From Methylobacterium sp. CB376 (GTDB lineage: Bacteria; Pseudomonadota; Alphaproteobacteria; Rhizobiales; Beijerinckiaceae), in contig NZ_CP121648.1 in the NCBI RefSeq assembly GCF_029714205.1, forward strand, positions 3,843,501 to 3,907,500: a DNA stretch of 64,000 nucleotides, read 5' to 3'. The notes under the pieces were generated by a model. That model was not told where the DNA came from and did no database searches. It was given only the letters and a program-made list of their open reading frames with translations. The stretch's first letter is position 1. Each line of letters starts with the position of its first letter. This document shows, piece by piece, positions 17,190 to 62,507 of the stretch. The translations under genes and the position numbers were made by a program.

Positions 17190-17196
17190 AAGACTC

Positions 17197-17788: not shown

Positions 17789-17820
17789 GCGGCGGGCCGG
17801 GCGCGCCGCGGCCCGCCGCT

Positions 17821-39227: not shown

Positions 39228-39363
39228 TCATCCGACATCCGGTTGATGGCTTCGCCATCTCCGATTTCGGCCATGCGGATGTCGGCTTCGCTCAGGCGCC
39301 GCGCTCAGGCGCCGCGCGGGCTCGTGATCCGGGATCCGCGTCGATCAAGCGGATCCCGGATCA
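39228..39363. repeat. Dispersed intergenic repeat, copy D (longest)
   Basis: The complete element: tcatccgacatccggttgat, a small gatggc-ttc-gccatc hairpin, the core atgcggatgtcggcttcgct, and a terminal hairpin with a perfect 15-bp stem (39325-39339 with 39349-39363, loop gtcgatcaa). A 13-bp piece (ctcaggcgccgcg) is duplicated in tandem at 39291-39316. The right arm ends on the stop codon of the next reverse-strand gene. Confidence 0.88.
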
Positions 39364-39882: not shown

Positions 39883-40042
39883 CTGACCTCTCGGATCATG
39901 ACCGGAACCGCGCCGATAGCGCCCGAACCGCGGCCGGATGATGACGCCCCGGCGCCTGTACGCGGTGCCCCCGATCGGCCATGACGGCGGGGCCGCGCGG
40001 CGCACCAGCAGCGCGCGGCGCGCGCCAGCAGGGGAGGACGCC

Positions 40043-40901: not shown

Positions 40902-42989
40902 ATGGCCAGGGTCCGCCTTCACCTGAAGAGCCGCGAGGATTTCGCGGCGCTCTCGCTCCACGAGAAGAACGCCTACCTGCAGGACGTGGCCGAGCGCGTC
41001 ATGAAGGTGCGCGGCGAGGAGCACGTGCCGCTGTCCAAGGACGCGCTGTCGCGCCTGCGGCGCTTCTACATGCGCCGCTCCTTCGCGGACCTGAAGCGGG
41101 AGGAGATCGAGGACGAGGGCATGCGCCACGCCCTCGACCGGATGGCCGAGGCGATCCGCGCCGACGAGGTGCAGAAGGTCATCGAGCACGAGCTGCCGAG
41201 CCCCCGCAAGACCGCCGGCCCGGAGGCGCGGCGGATCACCCGGCCGCCCCCCGACACCGACGCCCAGCTGATGTTCTGGGTGCCGGCGGTGTTCGACGCC
41301 CCCATCAAGGACGACATGAACCTGATGGACGTCGCGCCCTTCGCCCTGTCGAAGACCGCGGGCGAGGGCATCATCCGCTACGAGCTCAAGGACGCCATCA
41401 TCACGATCGAGGGCGGCGCCGAGGTCGGGCTCGCCACCGCCTACGATTACGACATCGTCATCAACATGATCTCGCACCTCGCCGAGGCGGTGCGGGTCTA
41501 CCGGATCGAGGAGGCGAAGGGCCGCCGCCCGAGCCTGCCGGGCCGGGTCTACCGCCCGGCCGCCGCCGAGATCCTGAAATTCTGCCGCCGCGACCTCGGC
41601 GGCAAGCAGTACATCGACCTCGAACGCGCGCTCGACCGGCTTCAGGCCACCCGCGTCAAGATCACCAACCTGCATGGCGGCAAGCGCCGCGAGACCCAGT
41701 CCTTCCCGCTCATCGGCCGCTACAAGGTGGTGAGCCGCACCGTCCAGGACCGGATCGACCAGATCGAGATCGAGATCCCGAACTGGGTCTACGAGGGCAT
41801 CGTCAAGCCGGACGGCAAGCCGACGATCCTCACCCTCAACGCCGACTACTTCCTGATCAACCGGCCGATCGCGAAGTTCATCTACCGGCTGGCGCGCAAG
41901 GCGGCGGGCGAGACCGAGGCCCGCTACTCCCTGCCCGAGCTGCACAAGCGCTCCGGCTCGAAGCTGCCGCCGCACAAGTTCCGCCAAGCCGTCGAGGACA
42001 TCGTCCAGGACGCGCAGCTGAGCCCGCTGCCCGATTACGACCTGATCCTGGAGAAGAGCGAGCGCTCGACGGTGCTGCGGATGCGCCGCCGCGCCGCCCG
42101 CCGCGAGGGCGCCGAGTCCTCCGGCCGCGAGTCCCCCGCCCGCGAGTCCCCGCCCGCGAGGCCGCCCCCGCCCGCGACTGATCCCGCGGCCCTGCCGGAT
42201 GCGCCCGGGCGGGCATCCCCGGGCGGGGAGCGCGGAGGAGCCGCGGGCGCCGCGTCGCGCCGGGCCGTCTTGTCCCAGCGTCATCCGGCGTGCTACGATT
42301 TCGGCATGCTCCGGGTGCGGTCCTTCCTGCAGGTCTTGGTGGCGATCGCGCTGATCGCGGCCGGCCTCGCGTCGTCGGCCGCCCATGCCCGGTCCGCGCA
42401 TGGCCACGAGGGCGCGCGCATGGCCGCGTCCGCCGCGCCGGCGGCGATCCGGGATGCCGCGATCCGCCTCGGCGGCGACCATCACGGCGAGACCGGCAGC
42501 ACCGATGCCGGCACGGCCCACCCGGTCTGCTGCTGCGGCAGCACCTGCTGCGCCGCCCTGGCCAGCCCGGCCGGGGTTCCGGTCCGGGCCGCCCGCGCGG
42601 CCCGCCCGCTGAGGCCGCCTGGCGAGCGGCCCCGTCCCGACGCCCTGTCGGAAGCCCTGCCCCGTCCCCCCGATCCCTCGCGTGACCGGCGCGCCCGCGG
42701 GCGCGTGACGCCACGCCGTCGTGCCGGCGGCTGGCCCGAGTTCCACGACGAAGGACCGATCCTCCCATGCGTACCCTGTTTGCCGCGGCCCTCGGCCTCG
42801 CGGCCCTCGCCCTGTGCGCCGGCGGCGCCCCGGCCCACGAGGGCCACGATCACGGCAGCGAGCCCCCGGCGGCGGCCACCCAGGCGCCGCGCGGCCATTC
42901 CAGCTCCGAGCGGTTCGAGCTCGTCGCGGTCGCCCGGCAGGGCGTCCTCGCGGTCTATCTCGACCGCGCGGCCACGAACGAGCCGGTGA
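40902..42989 (+). CDS. repA: RPA-family plasmid replication initiator, C-terminus running into next gene
   Basis: A plasmid-type initiator of the alphaproteobacterial RPA (replication initiator protein A) family. It is expected to bind iterons and open an origin. After a helical N-terminal region of about 110 residues, the core (about 120-400) shows LMFWVPAVFDAPIKDDMNLM, PFALSK, IIRYELKDAIITIEGG, LDRLQATRVKITN, IPNWVYEGI and the winged-helix-like DYFLINRPIAKFIYRLARKAAG and LHKRSGSKLPPHKFRQAV. After RMRRRA at about 42095 the reading becomes repetitive (GRESPARESPPAR) and continues without a stop through the next small gene to 42989. The genuine end is probably near 42.1-42.3 kb, and a frameshift is likely. 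No parAB genes are adjacent. Confidence 0.85.
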   Translation: MARVRLHLKSREDFAALSLHEKNAYLQDVAERVMKVRGEEHVPLSKDALSRLRRFYMRRSFADLKREEIEDEGMRHALDRMAEAIRADEVQKVIEHELPSPRKTAGPEARRITRPPPDTDAQLMFWVPAVFDAPIKDDMNLMDVAPFALSKTAGEGIIRYELKDAIITIEGGAEVGLATAYDYDIVINMISHLAEAVRVYRIEEAKGRRPSLPGRVYRPAAAEILKFCRRDLGGKQYIDLERALDRLQATRVKITNLHGGKRRETQSFPLIGRYKVVSRTVQDRIDQIEIEIPNWVYEGIVKPDGKPTILTLNADYFLINRPIAKFIYRLARKAAGETEARYSLPELHKRSGSKLPPHKFRQAVEDIVQDAQLSPLPDYDLILEKSERSTVLRMRRRAARREGAESSGRESPARESPPARPPPPATDPAALPDAPGRASPGGERGGAAGAASRRAVLSQRHPACYDFGMLRVRSFLQVLVAIALIAAGLASSAAHARSAHGHEGARMAASAAPAAIRDAAIRLGGDHHGETGSTDAGTAHPVCCCGSTCCAALASPAGVPVRAARAARPLRPPGERPRPDALSEALPRPPDPSRDRRARGRVTPRRRAGGWPEFHDEGPILPCVPCLPRPSASRPSPCAPAAPRPTRATITAASPRRRPPRRRAAIPAPSGSSSSRSPGRASSRSISTARPRTSR
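42306..42989 (+). CDS. Cys-rich exported metal-related small protein, in frame with repA
   Basis: A credible separate start lies at the ATG at 42306: MLRVRSFLQVLVAIALIAAGLASSAAHA is a signal peptide. It is followed by a His-containing region and the cysteine cluster CCCGSTCC, as in small metal-binding proteins that precede heavy-metal efflux operons. The natural length would be about 125 aa, ending near 42685, but the frame stays open and overlaps the adaptor gene by 220 bases. A one-base change in the C-run near 42664-42669 would bring a TGA at 42683 into use. It probably belongs to the efflux operon rather than to repA. Confidence 0.5.
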   Translation: MLRVRSFLQVLVAIALIAAGLASSAAHARSAHGHEGARMAASAAPAAIRDAAIRLGGDHHGETGSTDAGTAHPVCCCGSTCCAALASPAGVPVRAARAARPLRPPGERPRPDALSEALPRPPDPSRDRRARGRVTPRRRAGGWPEFHDEGPILPCVPCLPRPSASRPSPCAPAAPRPTRATITAASPRRRPPRRRAAIPAPSGSSSSRSPGRASSRSISTARPRTSR

Positions 42990-44461
42990 CGAACGCCGTC
43001 ATCCAGGCCGAGACCCCGGCCGGACCGGCCACCGCCGCCCCGCAGCCGGACGGCAGTTTCCGGCTCGACGCCGCCTGGAGCGAGGCGCCGGGCGAGTACG
43101 AGGTCGTGTTCACCGTCGAGGCCGACGGGGCCTCCGAGGTGTTCCCGGTGGCGCTGGACGTTCACCCGCCGGCCGCCCCCGAGCCGGGCAAGGCGGCGAG
43201 CCGGGCGGCCGCCTGGGCCGCGGCCCTCGACGTGGCGCACGACCTGCGCCAGCACCTCGTCCAGCGCGACCCGGTCGCGCTGCTCATCGGCGGCGGGGGC
43301 TTCGTGCTCGGCGGCCTCACCGTCCTGCTGATCCGCGGGCGCCGGCCGGCGATCCCGGCCATCCTGGTGCTGGCGGGCGCCGCCGCCCTGCTCTCCCCCG
43401 GCGCCGCGCGCGCGCACGAGGGCCACGGCGACGAGAGCGCCGCCCTCGCGGCGCCGGGCGGGCGCGACCTCGCCCGGCGCCAGGCGGATGGCAGCGTGTT
43501 CGTGCCCAAGCCGACCCAGCGGATCCTGTCGATCCGCACCGCGATCACCGCCACGGCGCGCCTGCCGCGCACCGTCGAACTGCCCGGCCGGGTCATCCCG
43601 GACCCGAATGCCAGCGGGGTGGTCCAGTCGGCGGTCGGCGGGCGCCTCGCGCCGCCCCCCGGCGGCTTCCCGCGGCTGGGCACGCCGGTGCGCAAGGACG
43701 ACGTCCTCGCCACCGTGACGCCGCCGCTGCAGCAGATCGACGTCTCCGACATGCGCCAGCGCCAGGGCGAACTCGACCAGCAGATCGCGATCGTCCAGCG
43801 CCGCGTCGAGCGCTACCAGCGGCTCACCGTCAGCGGCGCCGTCGCCCAGGTGCAGCTGGAGGAAGCCCTGGACGAGCTGCGCGGCCTGAAGGACCGCCGG
43901 GCGGCGCTCGACCGGGTGCGCCAGCAGCCCGAGGCGCTGGTCGCGCCGGTCGACGGCGTGGTCGCGGAGGCGAATGCCGTGGCCGGCCAGATGGCGAGCC
44001 CGGGCGCCCAGGTCTTCCTGATCGTCGATCCGCTGCGCCTGTGGGTCGAGGCGCTGAGCTTCGACGCGCTCTCCCCGGCCCAGACCGCCTCCGCGCGCCT
44101 CGCCGACGGCCGCACCCTGGCCCTCGCCTATCGGGGCGCGGGCCTCGCGGATCGCAACCAGGCCGTGCCCGTCCAGTTCGCCGTGGCGGAGGGCAACGGC
44201 GACCTGCGCACCGGGCAGTTCGTGACCGTGCTCGCCAGCATCTCGACCCCGCAGGAGGGCTTGGCCCTGCCGCGGGCCAGCGTGGTGCGCGGCGCCAACG
44301 GCCAGAGCCTCGTCTACGAGCACACCAAGCCCGAACTCTTCGAGCCGCGCGAGGTGCGCGTCGAGCCCCTGGACGCCGAGCGCGTGCTGGTTCTCTCGGG
44401 CCTCGCGGCCGGACGGCGGGTGGTGACGCAGGGCGCCGAACTGCTCAACCAGGTTCGCTGA
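42767..44461 (+). CDS. RND efflux periplasmic adaptor, CzcB/CusB family
   Basis: A membrane-fusion protein of 564 aa linking an RND pump to an outer-membrane channel for heavy-metal export. A signal peptide precedes a His-rich HEGHDHG, then an immunoglobulin-like domain. An internal membrane segment (VALLIGGGGFVLGGLTVLLI) leads to a second His-rich HEGHGDE. The adaptor proper follows: ARLPRTVELPGRVIPDPN, coiled-coil hairpin around QGELDQQIAIVQRRVERYQRL, lipoyl half VAPVDGVVAEANAVAGQMASPG and a beta-barrel. Usual adaptors are about 400 aa; the extra 170 residues are the N-terminal module. The RND gene starts 13 bases downstream. Confidence 0.9.
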   Translation: MRTLFAAALGLAALALCAGGAPAHEGHDHGSEPPAAATQAPRGHSSSERFELVAVARQGVLAVYLDRAATNEPVTNAVIQAETPAGPATAAPQPDGSFRLDAAWSEAPGEYEVVFTVEADGASEVFPVALDVHPPAAPEPGKAASRAAAWAAALDVAHDLRQHLVQRDPVALLIGGGGFVLGGLTVLLIRGRRPAIPAILVLAGAAALLSPGAARAHEGHGDESAALAAPGGRDLARRQADGSVFVPKPTQRILSIRTAITATARLPRTVELPGRVIPDPNASGVVQSAVGGRLAPPPGGFPRLGTPVRKDDVLATVTPPLQQIDVSDMRQRQGELDQQIAIVQRRVERYQRLTVSGAVAQVQLEEALDELRGLKDRRAALDRVRQQPEALVAPVDGVVAEANAVAGQMASPGAQVFLIVDPLRLWVEALSFDALSPAQTASARLADGRTLALAYRGAGLADRNQAVPVQFAVAEGNGDLRTGQFVTVLASISTPQEGLALPRASVVRGANGQSLVYEHTKPELFEPREVRVEPLDAERVLVLSGLAAGRRVVTQGAELLNQVR

Positions 44462-44474
44462 GGGCAGGCCCGCG

Positions 44475-47400
44475 ATGTTCACCTTCCTCGTCTCCGCCTC
44501 GCTGCAGAACCGCCTGCTCGTCCTCGCGCTCGCCGTCGTGCTGGTGATCTACGGCGGCCTCACCGTCACCAAGCTGCCGGTCGACGTGTTTCCGGACCTC
44601 AACCGGCCGACCGTCACGATCATGACCGAGGCCGAGGGCTTGGCGCCCCAGGAGGTCGAGCAACTCGTCACCTTCCCGATCGAGACGCAGATGAACGGCC
44701 TGCCGGGCGTGAGCCGGGTGCGCTCGGTCTCCGGCGTCGGCCTGTCGGTGACCTACGTCGAGTTCGACTGGGGCACCGACATCTACCGCAACCGCCAGCA
44801 GGTCGCCGAGCGGCTGGCGATGGTCCGGCCCCAGCTGCCCGACACCGTCGCGCCCTCGATCGGCCCGATCTCCTCGATCATGGGCCAGATCCTGATGGTC
44901 GCGGTGACCGGCGACGCGGTCGCGCCGATGCAGCTGCGCGAGGTCGCCGACTTCACGATCCGGCCGCGGCTGCTGACCGTCCCGGGCGTCGCCCAGGTGA
45001 TCCCGATGGGCGGCGAGGTGCGCCAGTTCCGGGTGGCACCGAACCCGGCCGCCCTGCGGGCGCTCGGCGTCACCTACGAGCAGGTCGAGCGGGCGCTCGC
45101 CCAGTTCGGCAGCAATGCCGGCGGCGGCTTCACCGACCAGAACGCCCGCGAGTACCTGATCCGCAACATCGGGCGGACCACCAGCCTGGACGACCTGCGC
45201 AGCCTCGTGGTGGCGACGAACGGCACCCGCCCGGTCTTCCTGCGCCAGGTCGCCGAAGTGTCCTTCGCCGCGCGGACCAAGCGCGGCGACGCGGGCTTCA
45301 TGGGCCGGCCGGCGGTGATCGTCTCGGTCGAGAAGCAGCCCGGCGTCGACACCGTGCGCCTCACCGAGACCGTCCAGGCGGCCCTCGCCGAACTCGCCCC
45401 CGGCCTGCCGAAGGGCGTGCGGGCCGAGCAGCTGATCTTCCGCCAGGCCGACTTCATCGAGACCTCGATCGGCAACGTCGAGAAGGTGCTGCTGGAGGCG
45501 ATCGCGGTGGTGGCCGTGGTGCTGTTCGCGTTCCTGCTCAACCTGCGCACCACGCTGATCTCGCTCACCGCCATCCCGGTCTCGATCCTGGTGACGGCGA
45601 TCGTCTTCCACCAGCTCGGCCTGTCGATCAACACGATGACGCTGGGCGGCCTCGCCATCGCGATCGGCGAACTCGTGGACGACGCGGTGGTGGACGTCGA
45701 GAACATCTTCCGACGCCTGCGCGAGAACCGCGAGCAGGGCAATCCGCGCTCGGTGTTCGACGTGGTGGTCTCGGCCTCGCAGGAGGTCCGCTCGGGCATC
45801 GTCTACGCCACCATGGTCATCGTGCTGGTCTTCGTGCCGCTCTTCGCCCTGTCGGGCATCGAGGGCCGGCTCTTCGCCCCGCTCGGGCAGGCCTACATCG
45901 TCTCGATCCTCGCCAGCCTGGCGGTGTCGATCACCCTGACCCCGGTGATGGCCTACTACCTGCTGCCCGGCCTCAAGCGGCTCGACGAGCACGAGAGCGG
46001 CCTCGTGCGCCTGCTCAAGCGCGGCAACCGGGCGCTGCTGCGCGGCGCCTTCGGCCGTCAACGGCTGGTGATGGGCCTCGCCGCGACCGGGGTGCTCGCC
46101 GCGGCCGTTGCCGCCTCGTTCCTGCCCCGGGCCTTCCTGCCGCCCTTCAACGAGGGGTCGTTCACCGTCAACATGACCTTCAACCCGGGCATCTCGCTGG
46201 CCGAGAGCAACCGGGTCGGCCTGATCGCCGAGCGCCTGCTGATGGAGATGCGGGACGTGCGCGCGGTCGGGCGGCGCACCGGCCGCGCGGAGCTCGACGA
46301 GCATGCCGAGGGCGTCCATTCCTCCGACCTGGAGATCGCCCTGAAGCCGGGCGCCCGCCCCAAGACCGAGCTCGTCGCCGAGATCCGCGACCGGCTGGCC
46401 GCGCTGCCGGTGAGCGTCAATGTCGGCCAGCCGATCTCGCACCGGCTCGACCACATGCTCTCCGGGGTGCGCGCCGAGATCGCCCTCAAGATCGTCGGCG
46501 ACGACCTCGACACGCTGCGCCGCCTCGCGGAGGAGCTGCGGGGCCGGATGGCCGGCATCCCGGGCATCGCCGACCTGCAGGTCGAGAAGCAGGTGCTGAT
46601 CCCGCAACTGGAGATCCGCGTCGATTACGGGCGCGCCGCCCTCTACGGGGTGCAGCCGGCGGCCTTCGTGGCGCAGCTCAGCAAATTGTCGAACGGCAGC
46701 GTGGTCTCGCGGGTGGTCGACGGCTACCGGCGCTTCGACGTCGTCATGCGCCTGCCCGACAGCATGCGCACCACCCAGAGCCTCGGCGACCTCCTGGTCG
46801 AGACGCCGTCCGGCTGGGTGCCGGCCCGTCAGATCGCCGACATCCGCGAGACCGACGGTCCCAACCAGATCCTGCGCGAGAATGCCCGCCGGCGCATCGC
46901 GGTTTTCGCCAACACCGACGGCAAGACCGACATGGCCGCGATCGTCGCGGGGATCCGGGCGCAGGTCGCGGCGGCGAACTGGCCCGAGGGCTACGCGGCG
47001 AGCCTGGAAGGGTCGTTCCAGGCCCAGGCCGAGGCCAGCCGCACGATCGGCGCGCTCTCGCTGCTCTCCCTGGGGCTGATCTACGCGATCCTGTACAGCC
47101 GCTACCGCTCGGCGGTCTTCACGCTGATCATCCTCGGCAGCATCCCGCTCGCCCTGATCGGCTCGGTCGCGGCGCTCTGGCTGTCCGGTCAGCCGCTCAG
47201 CGTGGCGTCGATGATCGGCTTCATCACCCTCACCGGCATCGCCACCCGCAACGGCATCCTGAAGATCAGCCATTACCTGAACCTCGCCCTGCACGAGGGG
47301 CTGGCATTCGGGCCCGACCTGGTGATCCGGGGCAGCCTGGAGCGACTGACGCCGGTGCTGATGACCGCCCTGTCGGCCGGCGTCGCCCTGGTGCCGCTGC

Positions 47401-47606
47401 TCACCGGCGCCGATGCCCCGGGCAAGGAGATCCTGCACCCGGTCGCCGTGACCATCTTCGGCGGCCTGATCAGCGCGACCCTCCTCGACACGGTGCTGAC
47501 CCCGGTCCTGTTCCTCCGCTACGGCCGCAAGTCCCTGGAACGGCTGATCGCCGCCCGGGACAGCAACCCCACCTCCGGCGCCGGGGCGCCGGTCGAGGCG
47601 TTCTGA
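44475..47606 (+). CDS. Heavy-metal RND efflux pump, CzcA/CusA family
   Basis: An inner-membrane proton-driven pump of 1043 aa, the usual size, with twelve predicted membrane segments and two large periplasmic loops. N-terminal LPVDVFPDLNRPTVTIMTEAEG is diagnostic of the heavy-metal branch. The proton-relay helix reads GGLAIAIGELVDDAVVDVENIFRRL, with Asp and Glu in the expected places. That variant belongs to the metal RND group but does not tell cobalt/zinc from copper/silver. No outer-membrane channel gene is next to it, so a CzcC/CusC elsewhere would be needed. Confidence 0.93.
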   Translation: MFTFLVSASLQNRLLVLALAVVLVIYGGLTVTKLPVDVFPDLNRPTVTIMTEAEGLAPQEVEQLVTFPIETQMNGLPGVSRVRSVSGVGLSVTYVEFDWGTDIYRNRQQVAERLAMVRPQLPDTVAPSIGPISSIMGQILMVAVTGDAVAPMQLREVADFTIRPRLLTVPGVAQVIPMGGEVRQFRVAPNPAALRALGVTYEQVERALAQFGSNAGGGFTDQNAREYLIRNIGRTTSLDDLRSLVVATNGTRPVFLRQVAEVSFAARTKRGDAGFMGRPAVIVSVEKQPGVDTVRLTETVQAALAELAPGLPKGVRAEQLIFRQADFIETSIGNVEKVLLEAIAVVAVVLFAFLLNLRTTLISLTAIPVSILVTAIVFHQLGLSINTMTLGGLAIAIGELVDDAVVDVENIFRRLRENREQGNPRSVFDVVVSASQEVRSGIVYATMVIVLVFVPLFALSGIEGRLFAPLGQAYIVSILASLAVSITLTPVMAYYLLPGLKRLDEHESGLVRLLKRGNRALLRGAFGRQRLVMGLAATGVLAAAVAASFLPRAFLPPFNEGSFTVNMTFNPGISLAESNRVGLIAERLLMEMRDVRAVGRRTGRAELDEHAEGVHSSDLEIALKPGARPKTELVAEIRDRLAALPVSVNVGQPISHRLDHMLSGVRAEIALKIVGDDLDTLRRLAEELRGRMAGIPGIADLQVEKQVLIPQLEIRVDYGRAALYGVQPAAFVAQLSKLSNGSVVSRVVDGYRRFDVVMRLPDSMRTTQSLGDLLVETPSGWVPARQIADIRETDGPNQILRENARRRIAVFANTDGKTDMAAIVAGIRAQVAAANWPEGYAASLEGSFQAQAEASRTIGALSLLSLGLIYAILYSRYRSAVFTLIILGSIPLALIGSVAALWLSGQPLSVASMIGFITLTGIATRNGILKISHYLNLALHEGLAFGPDLVIRGSLERLTPVLMTALSAGVALVPLLTGADAPGKEILHPVAVTIFGGLISATLLDTVLTPVLFLRYGRKSLERLIAARDSNPTSGAGAPVEAF

Positions 47607-47643
47607 CCCCCTCCCCCCGACCCCCCTTCGAGGAGCCACGACC

Positions 47644-48039
47644 ATGCGTACCCCCGCCCTCGCCCCCACCCTCGCCACCCTGCTCGCCCTCGCGCTCGGC
47701 GGTGCCGCGCTCGCGCCGCTCACCGCCGCGCGCGCCCAGGAGGCCGGCCCGAACGGCGGCCAGGTCTCCGTCGCGGACGGCCACCCGATCGAGATGGTCG
47801 CCGCCGGCACGGCGCTGACCTTCCACCTCCTCGGGGAGGACGGCAAACCCGTCGACACCAAGGGCCTGAGCGCCCGCGCCTTCGTGCAGAGCGGCGGCCG
47901 GACCGAGACCGTCGCCCTCACCCCGGCGGCGCCGAACAGGCTCGTCGGCACCCTCGCCGCCCCGCTCGCCGCCGGCAAGGTGGTGCTGTCGACCAGGATC
48001 CACGGCCACGCCCTCCAGGCCCGCTATGAGACGAAGTAG
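47644..48039 (+). CDS. Small periplasmic protein of the metal-efflux operon
   Basis: A 131-residue exported protein with signal peptide ending LTAARAQ. The mature part begins AGPNGGQVSVADGHPIEMVAAG and has a TFHLLGEDGKPVDTKG segment typical of small CusB/CzcB-associated periplasmic domains that bind metals. The C-terminal STRIHGHALQARYETK adds His residues. gaggagccacgacc precedes the ATG. It is the fourth gene of the efflux operon; its exact role is unknown. Confidence 0.72.
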   Translation: MRTPALAPTLATLLALALGGAALAPLTAARAQEAGPNGGQVSVADGHPIEMVAAGTALTFHLLGEDGKPVDTKGLSARAFVQSGGRTETVALTPAAPNRLVGTLAAPLAAGKVVLSTRIHGHALQARYETK

Positions 48040-48403
48040 CGGCCGCGCGGGGGCGCGGGCGGTCGTCACCCTGGCCGCCGTCGCCCTGACCGCCGTCCCC
48101 TTGGCGGCCGTCCCCTTGCTGGCCGTTCGCTTGGGGGCCGTCCCCTGGGCCGCCGCCCTCCTCGCCGCCGCGGCGCCGGCCGCCACCGCCCTGGCCGAGC
48201 CCCGGTCCCAGCTCAAGCAGGCCCTGCAGCTGGCCCGTTGCATCCCGCGCGCCGTCGCCGTCACCCTCCGCGAGGGTGCGATGACGGTCTACGACGTGGC
48301 CTGCCTCGGGCCGTCGCCCGATCGCGTGGTCGTGGTCTGCACCGGCCGGGTCTGCCTGCCCGACGACCCGGACCATCACGACGGCCCGGACGAGACGCCC
48401 TGA
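48026..48403 (+). CDS. Small hypothetical membrane/exported protein
   Basis: A 125-residue reading overlapping the previous gene by 14 bases. It has an Arg-rich N-terminus, a long hydrophobic stretch built from repeated LAAVPLL-like units (the DNA repeats ggccgtccccttg), and then a normal soluble part with two cysteine-containing segments (CIPRAVAVTLREGAMTVYDVACLG, VVCTGRVCLPDD). The C-terminal half looks like real protein, so the gene is likely. No family was recognised. The iteron array starts 21 bases after its stop. Confidence 0.5.
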   Translation: MRRSSGRAGARAVVTLAAVALTAVPLAAVPLLAVRLGAVPWAAALLAAAAPAATALAEPRSQLKQALQLARCIPRAVAVTLREGAMTVYDVACLGPSPDRVVVVCTGRVCLPDDPDHHDGPDETP

Positions 48404-48423
48404 CGGGCCGCGGCCGGGCGCCC

Positions 48424-48601
48424 TGACAAAAGTCCCGTACTTCGCTCCGCGCCGGTTTGACAAAAATCCCGTACATGGGACTCCGCGGTTTTGGCACCCG
48501 ACCGTACTTCGGTCCGCCCGCGCGTGACAAAATCGGACCGCCCGCCCCTCGCGCCGGGCTGACGGATTCGCCGTACTTCGCTCCGCCTCCCCGTGACAAA
48601 A
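48424..48601 (+). repeat. Array of about six 34-bp iterons
   Basis: TGAC-type boxes start at 48424, 48458, 48492 (variant TGGCAC), 48525, 48560 (variant TGACGG) and 48594, spaced 34, 34, 33, 35 and 34 bp. CCGTAC boxes lie 10-11 bp behind four of them (48435, 48469, 48502, 48571). The full unit is TGACAAAA, 3-4 bases, CCGTAC(T/A)TCG. The same unit occurs twice in the origin region at 60397-60440, so both arrays probably bind the same initiator. DnaA-like boxes are absent here. Confidence 0.88.
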
Positions 48602-48864
48602 CCGGCGCCCGCGCCGGGCGGCCCGGTCGCACGGCCGGCGCGGGGATCCGTGCGGACCGCGCTCGTCGCCGTCCCCGCTGCCCCGCCGGAGCGGAACAGT
48701 CGCGCCTCAGCAAGGTCGGAGCCGGACCGGATGCGGCGCCGGTCGGACCGGTGCACGAGCAGTTCAAGACTTGCTCGACCTTCTCTATCACAAGTCACGA
48801 CCGGCAGTGATAATCACGCTTTCTTAGGGAAGCGGTCCTACCGTTGGGTCACGTGGGAGGATCG

Positions 48865-53299: not shown

Positions 53300-53587
53300 T
53301 GCGTTTCTCCCGCGCTCGTGGCGCTTGCGCCGCCGGTCTAGGCAAGACGATGCGCAGCACCCTCCCGTGACGGCATTGCGGCATAGACCGGACTCGACAC
53401 CTCGTCGGAAGCTGACCCCGACGTCATCTGTGCCGCTGGTCTTGTCCTGCCACGAATCAAGACTACGACGTGCCGTGCGAAGCCGGCAATCTGCAAATCC
53501 GCAACACCGGACCGAAATGATGACCCTAAGTCAGACCGGGATGGTCCGACGCCGTGCCGCACCGGTCCGGGCACCGGAAACGCGCGC

Positions 53588-54796
53588 TCAGGCGGGCCGG
53601 ACGCGGCAGGCCAGGAGGGTGGCGGCGAGCCCCGACAGCGCGAAGAGCGGCACCAGGACCAGGAGCACCTCGATGGGGCTCTGCCCCGCCTTGAGCAGGA
53701 CGCCCGCGAAGAGCGGACCGACGACCGATCCGAGGCGCCCCACCGAGACGGCCGCCCCGACGCCGGTGCCGCGCATCTCCGTCGGGTAGCAGCTCGGCGC
53801 GAGGGCGTAGAGGGCCATCTGCGCCCCGGAGGCGGTGGCCCCGATCAGGAACCCGGCAGCCATCATCAGGGCGAGCGAGGCCGGGACGGCGGCGAGCAGC
53901 ACCAGGGCCGCGATGCTGCAGCCGAAGATCAGGGCCACCGACGCCGCCCGGTTCCAGCGGTCCATCAGCAGGCCGGTCGCGACGCTGCCGAGGGCGCCGC
54001 CGAGGTTGAAGGCGACCTGGACCCAGGACGCGTCGGCGCGCGGCAGGCCCCGCGAGATCAGCAGGGAGGGCAGCCAGTTGAGGAGGAGGTAGAAGACGAA
54101 CAGCCCGAGCAGGAACCCGGTCCAGAGCAGGGCCGTGGCGACGGCCCTGCCCTCGCCGAACAGGGCGTCGGGCACGCTGCGGGCCGGCCGGCCCGGCGCG
54201 GCGGGGCCCCCGCCGGCGGGCAGCCACGCCGCGAGCAGCGGGATCACCGCGAGCGGGGCGACGCCGCCGAGGACGAAGATGCCCGACCAGTTCCCCGGAT
54301 CGGTGTCTACCAGGGTGGCGAGACTCGCCAGGACGCCGCCGACCGGCAGGCCCGCGTAGAGCGCCGCCACCGCCCGGCCGCGATAGGCCGGCGACGCGGT
54401 CTCGGCGACGAGCGCGATCAGGTTCGGCAACGCCCCGCCGAGGCCGACCCCGGTCAGCAGGCGGGCCGCGACGAGCTGGTCGAAGCGCGCGGCGAGCCCG
54501 GTGAGGATCGACATCAGCCCGAACACCGCGACCGCGGCGAGCAGGGTGCGCTTGCGGCCCAGCCGGTCGGAGATCCGCCCGCCGAAGGCCGCCCCGACGA
54601 GCAGGCCCAGCGTGCTCGCGCTGAAGAACAGGCCGAGCTGGCTCGGGGCCAGGCCGAAGGCCGCCACCAGCCGCGGCGCCGCCACCCCGGCCGATTGCAG
54701 GTCGAAACCCTCGATCGCCGCCACCAGGCAGCAGAGCCCGAGGGCCGTCACATTCGCTCCCGACGCCTCGCGCGCCGGCACCACGGCACCCACCAT
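53588..54796 (-). CDS. MFS aromatic-acid:H+ symporter, AAHS (PcaK-like) family
   Basis: A twelve-helix inner-membrane importer of 402 aa. The AAHS signature appears as IEGFDLQSAGVAAPRL in helix 1 and GGRISDRLGRKRTLL in the loop after helix 2. SPAYRGRAVAALYAGLPVGG and CYPTEMRGTGVGAAVSVGRLGS are further family marks. GGGAGG sits six bases before the ATG at 54796; a TTG two codons earlier lacks spacing. Followed by a CoA ligase, hydratase-lyase and aldehyde dehydrogenase on the same strand, it most likely imports ferulate, p-coumarate or a similar acid. Confidence 0.9.
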   Translation of the reverse strand: MVGAVVPAREASGANVTALGLCCLVAAIEGFDLQSAGVAAPRLVAAFGLAPSQLGLFFSASTLGLLVGAAFGGRISDRLGRKRTLLAAVAVFGLMSILTGLAARFDQLVAARLLTGVGLGGALPNLIALVAETASPAYRGRAVAALYAGLPVGGVLASLATLVDTDPGNWSGIFVLGGVAPLAVIPLLAAWLPAGGGPAAPGRPARSVPDALFGEGRAVATALLWTGFLLGLFVFYLLLNWLPSLLISRGLPRADASWVQVAFNLGGALGSVATGLLMDRWNRAASVALIFGCSIAALVLLAAVPASLALMMAAGFLIGATASGAQMALYALAPSCYPTEMRGTGVGAAVSVGRLGSVVGPLFAGVLLKAGQSPIEVLLVLVPLFALSGLAATLLACRVRPA

Positions 54797-54865
54797 GTCC
54801 AACCTCCCGATCGCAGCAGGATTTCTCGGGCCTCCGCCGACCCGTCGCGCGCGGCGGCGCCGGCC

Positions 54866-56989
54866 TCAGGCCGGCGCGACCAGCATCAGCGCGTCGAGGG
54901 CGAGCGCGCCCTCGCCGGCCGGGTAGACGACCACCGGATTGAGATCGATCTCGCGGATGCGCGGCTCTCCCGCGAGGGTGCGGCCGAGGGCGGCGGCCAG
55001 GCGGGCCACCGCCGCCACGTCGCACCGCGCCGCGCCCCGGAACCCGTCGAGCAGGGCCGCGCAGCGCAGGGCCATGATCTCGGCCGCGATCGCCGCCTCG
55101 TCCATGCCGGGCGAGAGCAGGCGCACGTCCTTCAGCACCTCCGCCTGCACGCCGCCGAAGCCCACGAGCACGACCGGGCCCCATTCGGGGTCGTTGCGGC
55201 CGCCCAGGATCAGTTCGACGCCGCGCGGGCCCATCCGCTCGACCAGCACGCCGTCGAGGACGAGGCCGGGCCGGTGGCGCGCGACGTTGGCCGCCAGGCG
55301 CTCCCAGCCCTCCGCGAGGGCCTGCGCGTCCCGCAGGCCGACGATCACGCCGCCCGCGTCGCTCTTGTGGGACAGCTCGGCCGATTGCGCCTTGAGCACG
55401 ACCGGGTAGCCGAGGACCTCGGCGGCGCGCAGGGCCTCCGCCAGGGTCGTGGCCATGCGGCCCTCCGGGAAGGGCACCCCGAGCGGGGCGAGGGCCGCCT
55501 TGGCGGCGTATTCCGGCACCACCCCGGCCAGGTTCCGGGCCAGGTTCCGGGCCAGGGCCGGCGCGGCCGGCGCGGCCGGCGCGGCCGCCGCGGTGGCGAT
55601 CCGGCGGCCGGACCGCCGCGCCACCGCGGCGAGGGCCCGCACGGCCCGCTCGCCCGACGGGAAGCAGGGCACGCCGAGGTCGCGCAGGGCCGCGAGGCCG
55701 TCGGGCGGAACGGCCGCGCCCTCGTCGAGCCCGGCGAAGACCACCGGCTTGCCCGGCCGAAGCTCGCGCAGGGCCGCGATGATCGGCGGGAACTTGAGGC
55801 GCGCCGTGGTCTCGTCGGTCTGGATGATGCCGAGCAGGATCGCGCCGAAGCGGGGATCGTCGAGGAGCGCGGCGAGCGCGCGCCGGTAGAGGTCGGGGTC
55901 GACCAGCCCCTGGGCGGTCAGGTCGACCGGGTTGCTGACGGGCACGAAATCCGGCAGCGCGGCGCGCAGGCCCGGGCTGTCGGCATCCGCGATGGCCGGG
56001 AGGTCGAGGCCGACCTCCTCGGCGAGGTCGAGGGTCAGGGCCTTGTAGGCGCCCGACTCCACCAGCACGGCGCTCCCCCCGGACCCGGGCGGCGGGCAGC
56101 GCAGCAGGATCTCGGCGACGTCGGCGAGCTCCTCCAGGGTGGGCACCAGGCTCACGCCGGCGTCCTCGACCTTGAGGCGCATGAGGTCGTAATCGCCCGC
56201 GAGCGCCCCCGTATGGGTGGCGGCCGAGCGGCGGGCGGCCTCGCCGCGCCCGGGATGGAGCAGGACGACCGGCTTGCCGGCCGCGTGGGCCCGCCGGGCC
56301 GCCGCCAGGAAGCGCGCGGGCTTGCGGAACTGCTCGACGATCAGGACGATCACCCGCGTGTCGGGATCCTCGACCAGGAACTCGACGTAGTCCTCGACGC
56401 CGCTCGCGGCCTCGTTGCCGGTCGAGACCGAGTAGGACAGGCCGAGCCCGCGCGCCTGCAGCGTCACGGCGAGCACCGCCGCCATGGCGCCGGATTGCGA
56501 GACGATCCCGATGCCCGGGCGGCCCGCGAGCCGGGTCCCGGGCAGTTCCACGAAGGTGAGGGGCACGCCGTCGACGAAATTGACGAGGCCCAGGCAATTG
56601 GGCCCCTCGACGACCATGCCGGCCTCGCCGGCGATCCGGGCGATCTCATCCTGCTCGGCGCGGCCGGCCTCGCCGCCCTCCGCGAAGCCGGCCGAGAACA
56701 CCACCGCCGCCCCGGCCCGCCGCGCCGCCAGCGCCCGGATCGCCGGCAGCACGGCGGCGCGCGGGATGGCCAGCACGGCGGCGTCCACCCCGTCCGGCAG
56801 CGCCTCGACGCAGGGCAGGCAGGGCCGCCCGCCGATCTCCGCCCGGTTGGGGTTGACGAGGTGGATCGCGCCGCAGTACCCGGCGCGCTCCAGGTTGGCG
56901 AGGACCGAGGCGCCGAGCGCGCCCGGCTTGTCGGAGGCCCCGACGATCGCGACCGAGGCGGGCCGCAGCAAGCGAGCAAGATCTGTCAT
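54866..56989 (-). CDS. NDP-forming acyl-CoA ligase, probable feruloyl-CoA synthetase
   Basis: A fused alpha-beta acyl-CoA synthetase (ADP-forming type) of 707 aa. The N-terminal CoA-binding domain reads SVAIVGASDKPGALGASVLANL; the succinyl-CoA-ligase-like domains have GIVSQSGAMAAVL and the active His in ATHTGALAG. The C-terminal ATP-grasp has YPVVLKAQSAELSHKSDAGGVIVGL and GGRNDPEWGPVVLVGFGG. Sphingobium FerA, which activates ferulate, belongs to this superfamily. With a hydroxycinnamoyl-CoA hydratase-lyase beside it, activation of ferulate or p-coumarate is the best guess; other acyl acids remain possible. Confidence 0.88.
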   Translation of the reverse strand: MTDLARLLRPASVAIVGASDKPGALGASVLANLERAGYCGAIHLVNPNRAEIGGRPCLPCVEALPDGVDAAVLAIPRAAVLPAIRALAARRAGAAVVFSAGFAEGGEAGRAEQDEIARIAGEAGMVVEGPNCLGLVNFVDGVPLTFVELPGTRLAGRPGIGIVSQSGAMAAVLAVTLQARGLGLSYSVSTGNEAASGVEDYVEFLVEDPDTRVIVLIVEQFRKPARFLAAARRAHAAGKPVVLLHPGRGEAARRSAATHTGALAGDYDLMRLKVEDAGVSLVPTLEELADVAEILLRCPPPGSGGSAVLVESGAYKALTLDLAEEVGLDLPAIADADSPGLRAALPDFVPVSNPVDLTAQGLVDPDLYRRALAALLDDPRFGAILLGIIQTDETTARLKFPPIIAALRELRPGKPVVFAGLDEGAAVPPDGLAALRDLGVPCFPSGERAVRALAAVARRSGRRIATAAAAPAAPAAPALARNLARNLAGVVPEYAAKAALAPLGVPFPEGRMATTLAEALRAAEVLGYPVVLKAQSAELSHKSDAGGVIVGLRDAQALAEGWERLAANVARHRPGLVLDGVLVERMGPRGVELILGGRNDPEWGPVVLVGFGGVQAEVLKDVRLLSPGMDEAAIAAEIMALRCAALLDGFRGAARCDVAAVARLAAALGRTLAGEPRIREIDLNPVVVYPAGEGALALDALMLVAPA

Positions 56990-57281
56990 GGATTGGGCGT
57001 CCCTCACGCGGCACGACGCGGCGTGCCCGGCTGTGCGCGGATCGGCTCACCCCCGTTCTTGACGCAGGGGAAGAACCGGGTCGAGGCGAGCGCCGTCCTC
57101 ACGCTGCCGAGGCCGGAAGCGCGGGGTGGCGTGCCGATCGGTGGTCTCTGCCGCGGGGCGCACGACCCGTCGAGTCGGGCCGCGGCTCAGGTTCCGTGCG
57201 GGGCCCGCCTCCGTCGCCGCACCGGCCGCCGGGTCGGCGAGGAAGGCGGGTCCCGCACGGGCGAGGCCTCCTCCGCCGAGG

Positions 57282-57311
57282 GGATCACCGGCGAAGGGAT
57301 CACCGGTGCGG
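57282..57311. repeat. 15-bp tandem duplication
   Basis: gggatcaccggcgaa is followed immediately by gggatcaccggtgcg: two copies with differences only in the last bases. It lies in the 347-base gap between ligase and hydratase-lyase genes, which otherwise holds no recognised feature. Confidence 0.7.
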
Positions 57312-57336
57312 CGCAGGCGTGGCCGGTCCTGCGGAT

Positions 57337-58188
57337 TCAGGCAGGATTGGCGGAGGCGGTCCTGCGCAGGTCGTAGGCGCCGAGGCCCGGCTTGTAGGAC
57401 TTCTCGTCGATGAACTGGCGGATGCCCTCCTTGCGGCCCTCGCCGTCGTAGCTGTTGGCCGCCTCCTGCGCCCGGACCAGGTAATCCTCGGCGTTGTCGT
57501 AGGTCATCTCGCGGACGCGGCGGATCGCGTCCTTGGTCGCCTTGAGGGCGGTCGGGTTCTTGGCGAGGAGCAGGGCCGCCACCTCGCTCACCCGGGCCCT
57601 GAGCTGCCCGGCCGGCACCGCCTCGTTGACGAAGCCCCAGGCCGCGGCCTCGCGGCCGTCGATCGCCTCGCCCGTCAGGGCGTGGTACATGGCGTTGCGG
57701 AACGAGGTGAGTTCCACCGCGACCTTGCTGGCGCCGCCGCCCGGCAGGATGCCCCAGTTGATCTCGCTCAGCCCGAACTGCGCCTCCTCGGCCGCGAAGG
57801 CGAGGTCGCAGGCGAAGAGCGGGCCGTAGCCGCCCCCGAAGCACCAGCCGTTGACCATGGCGATCGTCGGCTTCTGGTACCAGCGCAGGCGGCGCCACCA
57901 GCCGTAGCTCTCGCGCTGCGCCTTGCGGGTGCCGGCGAGCCCCTGGGCCTCGGTCTCGCGGAAATACTCCTTGAGGTCCATCCCGGCGGACCACGCGCTG
58001 CCCTCGCCGGTGAGCACCAGCACGCCGACGTCCTGGCGGAATTCCAGCTCGTCGATGACCTCCATCATGCGCCGGTTGAGCTTGGGCGACATGCAGTTCC
58101 GCTTCTCGGGCCGGTTGAAGCGGACCCAGGCCACCCGGTCGATCACCTCGAAGGCGACGGTGTCCCGCTCGCTGCGCTCCTGCGACAT
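57337..58188 (-). CDS. ech: p-Hydroxycinnamoyl-CoA hydratase/lyase (feruloyl-CoA hydratase)
   Basis: A crotonase-fold enzyme of 283 aa converting feruloyl-CoA to vanillin and acetyl-CoA (p-coumaroyl-CoA to 4-hydroxybenzaldehyde). Diagnostic segments are WSAGMDLKEYFRE with Tyr75, WYQKPTIAMVNGWCFGGGYGPL with the oxyanion hole, FGLSEINWGI with Glu142, and NAEDYLVRAQ with Tyr236. These correspond to the catalytic residues known in the Pseudomonas enzyme (Tyr75, Glu143, Tyr239), which ordinary enoyl-CoA hydratases lack. GAGGAC precedes the ATG. It lies 26 bases downstream of the aldehyde dehydrogenase that would take its product. Confidence 0.93.
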   Translation of the reverse strand: MSQERSERDTVAFEVIDRVAWVRFNRPEKRNCMSPKLNRRMMEVIDELEFRQDVGVLVLTGEGSAWSAGMDLKEYFRETEAQGLAGTRKAQRESYGWWRRLRWYQKPTIAMVNGWCFGGGYGPLFACDLAFAAEEAQFGLSEINWGILPGGGASKVAVELTSFRNAMYHALTGEAIDGREAAAWGFVNEAVPAGQLRARVSEVAALLLAKNPTALKATKDAIRRVREMTYDNAEDYLVRAQEAANSYDGEGRKEGIRQFIDEKSYKPGLGAYDLRRTASANPA

Positions 58189-58214
58189 CTCTCTGTCCTC
58201 TCCTGGTGCCGAAA

Positions 58215-59660
58215 TCAGATCGGGTAATGGCCGGGCTGGGTCTCGATCGTGATCCAGCGCAGCTCCGTGAAGGCGTCGATCCCGGCCCTGCCGCCGAAGC
58301 GGCCGTAGCCGGAGGCCTTGACGCCGCCGAACGGCATCTGGGCCTCGTCGTGGACGGTCGGGCCGTTGACGTGACAGATCCCGGAGCGGATGCGGCGGGC
58401 GACCCGCAGGCCCCGCGCCGTGTCGCGGGTGAAGACCGCCGCCGAGAGGCCGTAATCGGTGTCGTTGGCGAGGGCGACCGCGTGCGCCTCGTCCCGGGCG
58501 CGCACGATCGCCACGACCGGCCCGAAGCTCTCCTCTCGGAACAGCCGCATGTCCGGCGTCACCCGGTCGACCGCGTGGGCGGGCATCAGCACGCCCGCGG
58601 CCGGGCCGCCGGCCACGAGCACGGCCCCCTCGGCCAGCGCCGCCTCCACCAGGGCGCCCACATGCGCGACGGTGCGGCGGTCGACGACGGCGCCGAGCGG
58701 CGCGCGGCCGTCGCGGGGATCGCCCACCGCCAGGGTCTCCACCTTGGCGCGGAACCTCGCCACGAAGGCCTCCGCCACCGCGTCGACGACGATGATCCGC
58801 TCCGTCGACATGCAGATCTGGCCCTGGTTCATGAAGGCCCCGAACGCCGCCGCCCGCACGGCCTCGTCGAGATCCGCATCCTCCAGCACCAGGAGCGGCG
58901 CCTTGCCGCCGAGTTCCAGGAGGCAGGGCGTCAGGGTCTCGGCCGCGCGCTTGGCGACGACGCGCCCGACCGCCGTCGATCCGGTGAAGTTGACCCGGCG
59001 CACCGCCGGGTGGTCGATCAGGGCGCCGACGACCTCGCCCGCCTCCTCGGGCCGGTTCGCCACGTAGCCGACCACGCCCTCCGGCAGGCCCGCCGCCCGG
59101 AGCGCCTCGGCGATCAGCGCGTGGGTGCGGGGGCAGAGTTCGGACCCCTTCAGGATCACCGCGTTGCCGCAGGCGAGGGGCACCGCGACCGCCCGCACGC
59201 CCAGGATCACCGGGGCGTTCCAGGGCGCGATGCCGAGCACGATCCCGGCCGGTTCGCGCATGGCCATGGCGAGGCAGCCGGGCTTGTCGGACGGGATCAC
59301 CTCGCCGCCGACCTGGGTGGTGAGGGCCGCGGCCTCGCGCAGCATGGAGGCGGCGAGCGTCACGTTGAACCGCGCCCAGCCCGCGGTGGCGCCGACCTCG
59401 CCCATCATCGCCGCGACGAAGGCCTCCGCCCTCGCCTCGATCTGCGCGGCGGCGCGCATCAGCGCGGCGCGGCGCGCGTTCGGTCCCAGGTCGGCCCAGG
59501 CCGGGAACGCCGCCGCGGCCGCGTCGGCCACCGCCACGGCCTCGTCCGGCCCGCAGGCCGGCACCCGGCTCGCCACCTCCCCGGTGATCGGATCGTGCCG
59601 CACGAGCAACCGCTCGGCAGCGGCGGCCACGCCGCCCGACACCCCGGCCATCGGCATCAT
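58215..59660 (-). CDS. vdh: Aldehyde dehydrogenase, probable vanillin dehydrogenase
   Basis: An NAD(P)-dependent aldehyde dehydrogenase of about 480 aa. The catalytic Cys is in NQGQICMSTERI, the general-base Glu in LLELGGKAPLLVLEDADLDEA and the Asn in GIAPWNAPVILG. GPTVHDEAQMPFGGVKASGYGRFGG is typical of the vanillin/salicylaldehyde dehydrogenase branch. It would oxidise vanillin or 4-hydroxybenzaldehyde from the hydratase-lyase. Several ATGs start the gene; the one at 59651 has the best spacing from AGGGGG. Transcription runs away from the MarR gene, across the operator at 59688. Confidence 0.88.
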   Translation of the reverse strand: MMPMAGVSGGVAAAAERLLVRHDPITGEVASRVPACGPDEAVAVADAAAAAFPAWADLGPNARRAALMRAAAQIEARAEAFVAAMMGEVGATAGWARFNVTLAASMLREAAALTTQVGGEVIPSDKPGCLAMAMREPAGIVLGIAPWNAPVILGVRAVAVPLACGNAVILKGSELCPRTHALIAEALRAAGLPEGVVGYVANRPEEAGEVVGALIDHPAVRRVNFTGSTAVGRVVAKRAAETLTPCLLELGGKAPLLVLEDADLDEAVRAAAFGAFMNQGQICMSTERIIVVDAVAEAFVARFRAKVETLAVGDPRDGRAPLGAVVDRRTVAHVGALVEAALAEGAVLVAGGPAAGVLMPAHAVDRVTPDMRLFREESFGPVVAIVRARDEAHAVALANDTDYGLSAAVFTRDTARGLRVARRIRSGICHVNGPTVHDEAQMPFGGVKASGYGRFGGRAGIDAFTELRWITIETQPGHYPI

Positions 59661-59687
59661 CCCCCTCGTCGCTTCCCCTCGGTATTG

Positions 59688-59705
59688 TTATGGTTCATAG
59701 CATAA
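59688..59705. promoter_or_regulatory. MarR-type operator in the divergent promoter region
   Basis: TTATG (59688-59692) and CATAA (59701-59705) form a perfect inverted repeat with an 8-bp spacer, in an unusually A/T-rich island between vdh and the MarR gene. Size, symmetry and position suit a MarR dimer repressing both directions, as CouR/FerR do for hydroxycinnamate genes. Confidence 0.55.
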
Positions 59706-59743
59706 AATTTGCGGGCCGCAACGGGGTGCTCTAAGGGGCCGGG

Positions 59744-60187
59744 GTGACGTCGAAGCCCCCGCGCCTGCACAGCCCGCTCAACGACCTGCTCGGCTACCAG
59801 CTGCGCCGCGCGTCGAACGCCCTGATGGCCGAGCTGGGTCAGGATCTCGGCCGGCTCGGCCTGACGCCCACCGAGGCGTCGGTCCTGGTCCTCGTCGCGG
59901 CGAATCCCGGCGTGACGCAGACCGAGATCGGCAGCGAACTCAGCATCAAGCGCGCCAACATGGCGCCGATCACGGCGCGGCTCGACGCGCTCGGCCTGGT
60001 GCTGCGGCAGCCGGTCGACGGGCGGGCGCAGGGGCTGTTCGTCACCCAGGCCGGCGCCGCCCGCGCCGACGAGGTGCGCAACGCCATGACGGCGCACGAC
60101 CGCAAGATCATGGCGCTGCTCCCGAAGGACCTCAGGGACGGGCTGCGGGCGAGCCTGCCGGTGTTCTGGCGCCAAGCCGGACGCTGA
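59744..60187 (+). CDS. MarR-family regulator, CouR/FerR-like
   Basis: A winged-helix repressor of 147 aa. YQLRRASNALMAELGQDLGRLGLTPTEASVLVLVAANPGVTQTEIGSEL is the N-terminal dimer and helix-turn-helix part, SIKRANMAPITARLDALGLV the recognition helix, and RQPVDGRAQGLFVTQAG the wing. GTG is the start, with AAGGGG six bases upstream. Divergence from the vdh-ech-ligase-importer genes and the palindrome between them suggest it represses ferulate/p-coumarate catabolism and is released by a hydroxycinnamoyl-CoA, as known for CouR and FerR. The ligand is inferred from context. Confidence 0.88.
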   Translation: MTSKPPRLHSPLNDLLGYQLRRASNALMAELGQDLGRLGLTPTEASVLVLVAANPGVTQTEIGSELSIKRANMAPITARLDALGLVLRQPVDGRAQGLFVTQAGAARADEVRNAMTAHDRKIMALLPKDLRDGLRASLPVFWRQAGR

Positions 60188-60457
60188 GCGTCCCGCGCCG
60201 CAGCCTTCCCCGGTCCGGCGGCGAAAATGTCGGGGGATGCGCATCCTCAGCGGACACGCCGCGCGCGCCGCCGCCGCGCGGGCCGGGCGAGCCCCGCTCC
60301 GGTCCGCGCGGCACCGACGAAAACCCCAACGCGTCCAGGAGCGTGCGCGGCGCCCGAGCGGCCCGCGAGGGCGGGGCCGCGCCTACCGTCGCGGCCTGAC
60401 AAAAACTCCGTACTTCGGTCCCTGCCCGGATGACAAAAACCGAGTTCCTGCCCGGTC

Positions 60458-60486
60458 TGTGGACAACCCCCCTGGACTGTGGACAA
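60458..60486. promoter_or_regulatory. Two DnaA-box-like sites
   Basis: TGTGGACAA occurs at 60458-60466 and 60478-60486, 20 bp apart. The complement TTGTCCACA differs by one base from the DnaA consensus TTATNCACA. They sit between the two iteron classes. Confidence 0.6.
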
Positions 60487-60509
60487 TTTCAAGGATTCGT
60501 CACGGGCCG

Positions 60510-60594
60510 CCGTACTTCGTTCCGGCTTGCCCCGTACATCGATCCGTCAACGCCGTACATCGATCCGTCAATCCCGTACATCGATCCGCGAATC
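60510..60594 (+). repeat. Four direct iterons with 21-22 bp period
   Basis: CCGTAC starts at 60510, 60532, 60553 and 60574. The last three units share CCGTACATCGATCCG followed by tcaa, tcaa and cgaa. The first is the variant CCGTACTTCGTTCCGG. A 21-bp period equals two helical turns, so a bound initiator would line up on one face. Confidence 0.9.
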
Positions 60595-60781
60595 GCGGCT
60601 TAACCACTTGATGCCGCGGCGGGATTCGGACCTGAAACTCAGATTCTAAAACCTTTAAAACAGATTCAAAACGCCTCCGGCGGGGGTTTCGCGAGAAATT
60701 CGAAGAAGGAGGGCGTCGCGCGCGAATCAACAGCCGCGGGCTATGTTCGGGATGGTGATGGAACAAGAGTCGTTGCGAATC

Positions 60782-62478: not shown

Positions 62479-62507
62479 CGGGGCCGGCCCGGCGCGGCCT
62501 CATCCCC

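Follow-up and report, generated by a model that had tools for sequence, protein, structure and literature searches.

Why should a plasmid-type replication initiator lie on a bacterial chromosome with no origin beside it? This question is raised by repA of Methylobacterium sp. CB376, which encodes an initiator of the RPA family, and by a set of iterons found far downstream of it. The window is the whole 64,000-bp stretch analyzed, C1:3843501-3907500, and coordinates without a prefix are window positions. The genome comprises 7,694,389 bases in two contigs, C1 (7,636,458 bp) and C2 (57,931 bp), so the feature resides on the main chromosome. To our knowledge, the taming of a plasmid origin that is trapped in a chromosome has rarely been seen step by step. 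Our analysis strongly favors the explanation that the locus is an integrated plasmid replicon, formerly a module of an RPA-type plasmid or megaplasmid, which inserted DNA broke into three pieces; it probably no longer fires, although repA remains under constraint.

The open reading frame (ORF) of repA scored 220 bits against the full PF10134 profile (1-228), for which the curated cut-off is 27, and a domain above this cut-off was taken as evidence of family membership. Two genomes served as the main comparison: WSM2598, a strain of the same species (contig of 7,507,747 bp, locus L093), and G114, the nearest outgroup, whose RPA locus is on a chromosomal contig of 7,772,460 bp. The repA frame is open to 42989 in CB376 (695 amino acids, aa) and covers 426 aa in WSM2598 and 418 aa in G114. 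Codons 1-400 are identical in CB376 and WSM2598, so the difference in frame size is confined to a non-conserved tail.

The RPA proteins of CB376 and G114 are 93-96% identical, and the DNA of repA is 91% identical to that of G114. Between these two genes dN was 0.022 and dS was 0.293 (NG86, 399 codons), which gives a dN/dS of ~0.075; for the two flanking genes that are shared with G114, dN and dS were 0.053 and 0.395 in one and 0.106 and 0.473 in the other (NG86). When the related genomes G102, G105, and G133 were used as outgroups, one amino-acid change was assigned to the CB376 branch, three were assigned to the G114 branch, and nine were ambiguous (390 aligned columns). The coding sequence of repA looks constrained in these comparisons.

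An earlier interpretation of the letters alone (the sequence-only reading) had described repA as an RPA-family initiator without adjoining iterons, and this description holds. CGTACWT is absent from both strands between 2999 and 48436, the latter being its first position downstream of repA. One 8-base partial match, GTACATCG, was found inside repA at 41609. The exact iteron core CGTACTTCGNTCC has five forward matches in the whole genome, with no reverse match and no match of the reversed control. All five are in the window (three in 48436-48584, two in 60409-60523) and on one strand, as in RPA/iteron replicons. The 18-mer CGTACATCGATCCGTCAA with at most three mismatches occurs three times in the window, compared with 0.01 expected. 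Based on these counts, the iterons are not due to chance. The first core is 6,278 bp beyond the end of the repA match, and iterons directly downstream of repA were not found.

The same reading had placed the sole complete origin-like module at 60390-60781. The module is real and spans ~60391-60720, but an iteron cluster at 48413-48640 had been missed. With this cluster included, the origin is divided in two, one part 6.2 kb and the other 18.2 kb downstream of repA. The second piece, hereafter cluster 2 or the origin core, contains the only place in the genome where TGTGGACAA is followed 5-30 bases on by TGTGGACA (60458-60486). The G+C content falls to its minimum of 0.49 at 60600-60699, and the window averages 0.734. 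DnaA-like boxes and an AT-rich stretch (60458-60486, 60633-60700) adjoin iterons, although DnaA-like sites are not universal in the relatives. A hairpin beyond chance was not found in the AT-rich stretch (z 0.27).

To compare the arrangement with that of relatives, 38 RPA loci were examined, with G114 included and WSM2598 set apart. Of these, 29 come from one set of 31 loci (L093 was set apart and L123, a 27-residue match, was dropped), five are among 40 listed plasmid records (1,139 matched), and the others are from G114, G102, G105, and G133. Several are near-identical loci of close species and are therefore non-independent. Cores were counted as forward CGTACWTS within 1.5 kb of the repA match, and at least three were required. 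This requirement selected 34 of the 38 relatives, in which the first core falls between -15 and +118 bp relative to where the repA match ends; the remaining four (L107, L121, L157, and L155) have variant repeats there, as read by eye. In 35 of the 38 loci, the 650 bp downstream held 196 forward cores and no reverse core, none was found upstream, and 31 of the 35 had at least three. In L107, L121, and L157, the repeats downstream of repA have a different core (CCGTCTATC...) and a similar geometry, which suggests that iteron specificity may have switched within one initiator family. The exact core was also considered as a genus-wide element. This was rejected, since it gave 27 matches in 98 relatives versus ~52 for the reversed control; it was matched in 22 of 99 genomes, CB376 included.

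Synteny with related replicons, to which the sequence-only reading had pointed, is informative in G114. There, a single uninterrupted origin of ~0.6 kb directly follows repA on the chromosome, and the module lies between the same two flanking genes as in CB376, with lineage-specific DNA besides. The right flank (61301-62502) corresponds to 16675-17873 of the G114 stretch L137 at 88% DNA identity. Cluster 1 (48413-48636) matches L137 13338-13581, and the origin core (60391-60708) matches L137 13496-13831; the two clusters cover the single G114 origin in order and overlap by one iteron. A few further shared anchors on either side follow the same order in the two genomes, each of which has other DNA in between. 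Because the flanking genes are shared, the module would have been chromosomal since before the split from the G114 lineage. Both forms of the original proposal, a replicon rearranged by insertion and an integrated replicon that still carries its parts, fit together; the molecule is the 7.64-Mb chromosome, and the G114 locus is compact.

The origin elements are better kept than the DNA between them. Compared with G114, cluster 1 retains 107 of 121 element bases and 70 of 107 spacer bases, and cluster 2 retains 166 of 198 and 84 of 130, respectively, with elements chosen by eye and an alignment that favors them. This difference may reflect the time before the split. The iteron core is the same in CB376 and WSM2598.

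The metal-efflux, chemoreceptor, and ferulate genes that had been reported between repA and the origin were recovered as metal-efflux, chemoreceptor, and hydroxycinnamate genes on two inserts (Table 1). Positions 42289-47554 of the first insert align at 80.5% to the M. aquaticum plasmid NZ_CP043628.1. The pump protein of this insert is 89% identical on G102 contig C2, which is probably that same plasmid, and the best G114 copy (77%) is elsewhere on the G114 chromosome. The lyase of the second insert was found at E ≤ 1e-40 in one of seven genomes searched, which is the same-species genome, and was not found in the six other RPA-bearing genomes. No recombinase was detected among the eleven insert ORFs scanned, which are a subset of the insert ORFs. 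Directly upstream of repA, a class II aldolase-family gene (39938-40834) has no DNA match in the G114 stretches compared, which raises the possibility of a change upstream of the module as well.

Table 1. Features of the split RPA locus, in window positions (edges of the inserts are approximate).
Feature	Position	Strand	Evidence or remark
Left-flank gene, common with G114	39355..39902	-	83% to L137 9526-10070
repA, RPA-family replication initiator	40902..42181	+	Pfam PF10134, conserved domain residues 136-381
Insert 1, ~6.2 kb	42182..48412		No counterpart between repA and iterons in G114
CusB/HlyD-type adaptor (insert 1)	42767-44461		
CusA/CzcA-family RND pump (insert 1)	44475-47606		TIGR00914, 754.7 bits (cut-off 701.45)
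Two small ORFs (insert 1)	47644-48039, 48026-48403		No Pfam match
Iteron cluster 1, type-I iterons (TGACAAAA...CCGTACTTCGNTCC), detached distal origin part	48413..48640	+	3/5 exact cores; 71% to G114 L137 13338-13581
Insert 2, ~11.75 kb	48641..60390		Pfam
Chemoreceptor (insert 2)	48844-50961	+	
Porin (insert 2)	51650-53299	-	
MFS transporter (insert 2)	53588-54802	-	
CoA-ligase-like protein (insert 2)	54866-57007	-	
p-Hydroxycinnamoyl-CoA hydratase/lyase (insert 2)	57337-58188	-	NF006588, 468.5 bits (cut-off 276)
Aldehyde dehydrogenase (insert 2)	58215-59660	-	
MarR regulator (insert 2)	59744-60187	+	
Origin core a: last type-I iteron and second TGACAAAA	60391..60450	+	
Origin core b: two DnaA-box-like TGTGGACAA sites	60457..60487	+	Spaced pair unique in genome
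Origin core c: iteron CGTACTTCGTTCC and three 21-bp-spaced iterons CGTACATCGATCCG	60510..60606	+	
Origin core d: AT-rich TAAAAC-repeat stretch, presumed unwinding element	60633..60700	+	AAACAGATTCAAAACG common with G114
Right-flank enolase-superfamily gene	61315..62478	+	Common with G114

Does the divided origin still fire? The motif GGGNAGGG is a marker of replication direction known from E. coli. Around the CB376 locus, its counts within 60 kb were +5 -12 on the left and +2 -16 on the right (p = 0.96); the flip expected at an active origin was not found. In contrast, RPA modules on two megaplasmid-size contigs lie near flips. On G105 C2 (974,745 bp), the counts within 100 kb of the end of parAB were +2 -6 on the left and +20 -1 on the right (p = 0.0004; p = 0.013 at the origin), and on G133 C2 (742,825 bp), they were +11 -30 and +11 -6 within 100 kb (p = 0.008). 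Neither G114 (p = 0.59) nor G102 (p = 0.38) showed a flip near RPA. The p-values come from trials with several window sizes and are uncorrected; the G105 and G133 flips are statistically modest. Because the flip is missing, repA is detached, and the array is divided, the CB376 origin is most likely silent or rarely used. The core at 60391-60700 keeps all element types, and activity in trans is therefore possible.

How the present state arose can be outlined on the model of the family architecture. In plasmids, the module is compact: after repA come type-I iterons, in many cases DnaA-like boxes, then 21-bp iterons and an AT-rich region for unwinding. RPA would occupy the iterons and bring in DnaA at the TGTGGACAA sites, and the two proteins together would unwind the AT-rich stretch. 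After integration, presumably from a megaplasmid, two blocks of accessory DNA would have entered the module, one at the end of repA and one inside the iteron array. As a result, the core, which keeps every element type, would have come to lie 18.2 kb away from repA and 11.75 kb away from the distal iterons.

The partition genes bear on how much of a megaplasmid was involved. In CB376, genes for ParA (446 aa) and RepB/ParB are at C1:4,005,922-4,008,320 (L254 5922-8320), 102 kb away. Two perfect GTTTGCAGCTGCAAAC palindromes, which we take to be plasmid parS sites, accompany this RepB-type parAB, and the class is absent from 33 other CB376 stretches totalling 660 kb. G133 also has two perfect palindromes of this class beside ParA, and in the examined stretches of G105, G114, and G102 no such palindrome was found. 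In G105, the genes for ParA and a RepB-type ParB stop 7.6 kb short of repA; in G133, 1.0 kb separates repA from a ParA homologue, which is backed by a ParB region. In G114 and G102, parAB-like genes are ~63 kb and ~57 kb from repA, respectively, the G102 ParA match being in two overlapping pieces. No RepC match was found in the CB376 genome, and the RepC matches of the G105 and G133 genomes fall on contigs other than the RPA contigs. Beside RPA, both G133 and G102 have a 363-bp stretch that matches C1:3.8215 Mb, 63 kb from the CB376 repA. A short gene 2.4 kb past the G133 RPA module, at the same relative place in G102, has a CB376 relative at C1:3.8215 Mb that is 77-78% identical (L215 17990-18388, minus strand; L143 16705-17127 and L140 3584-4078 in the others; no Pfam match). 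This gene may be one more dispersed piece of the former replicon.

Several observations weigh against a fragmented and silent megaplasmid module. The ParA proteins of CB376 and G114 are 66% identical, compared with 93-96% for RPA; the two genomes probably did not inherit a single copy of the par system, and the idea that a whole megaplasmid integrated is therefore weakened. The flanks of G105, G133, and G102 show only scattered matches to CB376 beyond repA, and no collinear block emerged when a sample of CB376 stretches was compared with 235 kb of G105 C2 and with 40 kb each of G133 C2 and G102 C1. No convincing target-site duplication or junction repeat was found beyond the iterons, and the one-iteron overlap in the G114 alignment makes a repeat-mediated gain possible instead of a simple cut. 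DnaA-like sites occur in only 22 of the 38 relatives, and the string AAACAGATT..AAAACG, from the AT-rich part, is present in only three of 35 loci. Finally, the use of GGGNAGGG as a direction marker is an assumption for this genus, and the G133 flip loses significance within 50-60 kb (p = 0.10-0.12).

These doubts leave room for other explanations. The split origin may still work, with RPA acting in trans on 60391-60700 as a second, plasmid-type origin and cluster 1 serving as a distant array for control by handcuffing. The constrained repA would agree with this, as would an origin core that keeps all element types and resembles the small-plasmid relative L156 in its number of iteron cores, and iteron cores without differences between CB376 and WSM2598. 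However, the locus lacks the origin-like flip seen near the G105 and G133 modules, and the conservation of repA and the core could predate the split. We therefore consider a working origin unlikely. Slightly less likely still is a working origin of three pieces, in which RPA would act in trans over 18 kb, the cluster ~12 kb away would provide copy control, and the whole would be a conditional second origin of the chromosome.

It is improbable that RPA was kept as a DNA-binding regulator of the genes near the clusters. Cluster 1 is ~240 bp upstream of the chemoreceptor gene, cluster 2 is between the MarR gene and a dehydratase-like gene, and the constraint on repA is compatible with such a role; however, a regulator would not need the DnaA-like boxes and AT-rich stretch that are retained, and the chemoreceptor itself is on inserted DNA. 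Comparison of two genomes alone gives no polarity of change, so the separated arrangement could be taken as ancestral, with the intervening genes lost in G114. Against this very improbable course, repeats lie directly downstream of repA in all 38 relatives, plasmids included (34 with the core and four with variants), and the lyase was not found in the six other RPA-bearing genomes searched. An assembly artefact is hardly credible. WSM2598 is a separate assembly, collinear with CB376 over 15.7 kb (99.3%) and 20.0 kb (99.7%), and it shows the same split, with cores at +6.3 to +6.5 kb from repA and a second cluster ~12 kb further; nothing was found in support of an error. An integrated replicon broken by insertions thus remains the explanation that we prefer. 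The sequence-only reading had named another RPA gene on the same molecule, adjacent to a better origin, as grounds for abandoning it; apart from repA, the genome has a single RPA match, which lies on C2 (57.9 kb) and is 31% identical to repA.

We also considered the locus as the main chromosomal origin. This was rejected, because a parS-like cluster is at C1:1.581-1.583 Mb (two exact TGTTTCACGTGAAACA sites and one with one mismatch) and a polarity flip is at 1.48-1.58 Mb. The parS-like sites suggest that oriC may be near 1.58 Mb rather than at dnaA (C1:460). In the stretches sampled, the GGGNAGGG polarity of C1 is a mosaic with changes near 1.5, 2.8, 4.5, 5.1, 5.9, and 7.0 Mb, and the replichores therefore look rearranged. 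Plain GC skew and third-position skew on C1 were too noisy for use. Eight genes with a DnaA-like ATPase domain (C1 1640111, 1709736, 2743505, 4360524, 5152587, 6047494, and 7583984; C2 19842) all have the same match score, with frame lengths of 366-367 aa, and they probably encode the helper ATPase of an insertion sequence.

The same type of replicon is available for comparison here in several forms: on plasmids, on 743-975-kb contigs with parAB nearby, and on chromosomes, where one copy is compact and another fragmented. It offers a natural case for the fate of a plasmid origin in a chromosome, whether silenced by breakage or still firing, and the comparison outlines a likely origin for RPA plasmids. 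In the partial literature available to us on replication initiator protein A, iterons, and Methylobacterium, we found no description of this arrangement.

Among known systems, IncP-1 plasmids (RK2/RP4) likewise have the initiator gene trfA and oriV as separate loci. However, their initiator is of another family and their iteron array is not itself known to be split. They also differ from the CB376 locus in being autonomous plasmids. RPA-type alphaproteobacterial plasmids (pBIND02, pAU20e, pRPA, A. pusense pC, and pMRAD05) share the initiator family at 52-71% identity. They likewise have same-strand iterons, an AT-rich TAAAAC stretch where it was read, and in some cases a DnaA-like box, with variant iteron cores in pBIND02 and pRPA. 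In these plasmids, the repeats are directly after repA, whereas the CB376 origin is chromosomal and divided, its two parts lying 6.2 and 18.2 kb from repA. One report calls the replication mechanism of pRPA of R. palustris undetermined (PMC8966681). In iteron-type Paracoccus plasmids, iterons, DnaA boxes, and AT-rich origins are usually near rep (PMC3832669). They differ in that the origin is compact and, where the side is stated, upstream of rep. The chromosomal RPA locus of G114 has the same flanks and origin elements as that of CB376, and it differs in being compact and uninterrupted.

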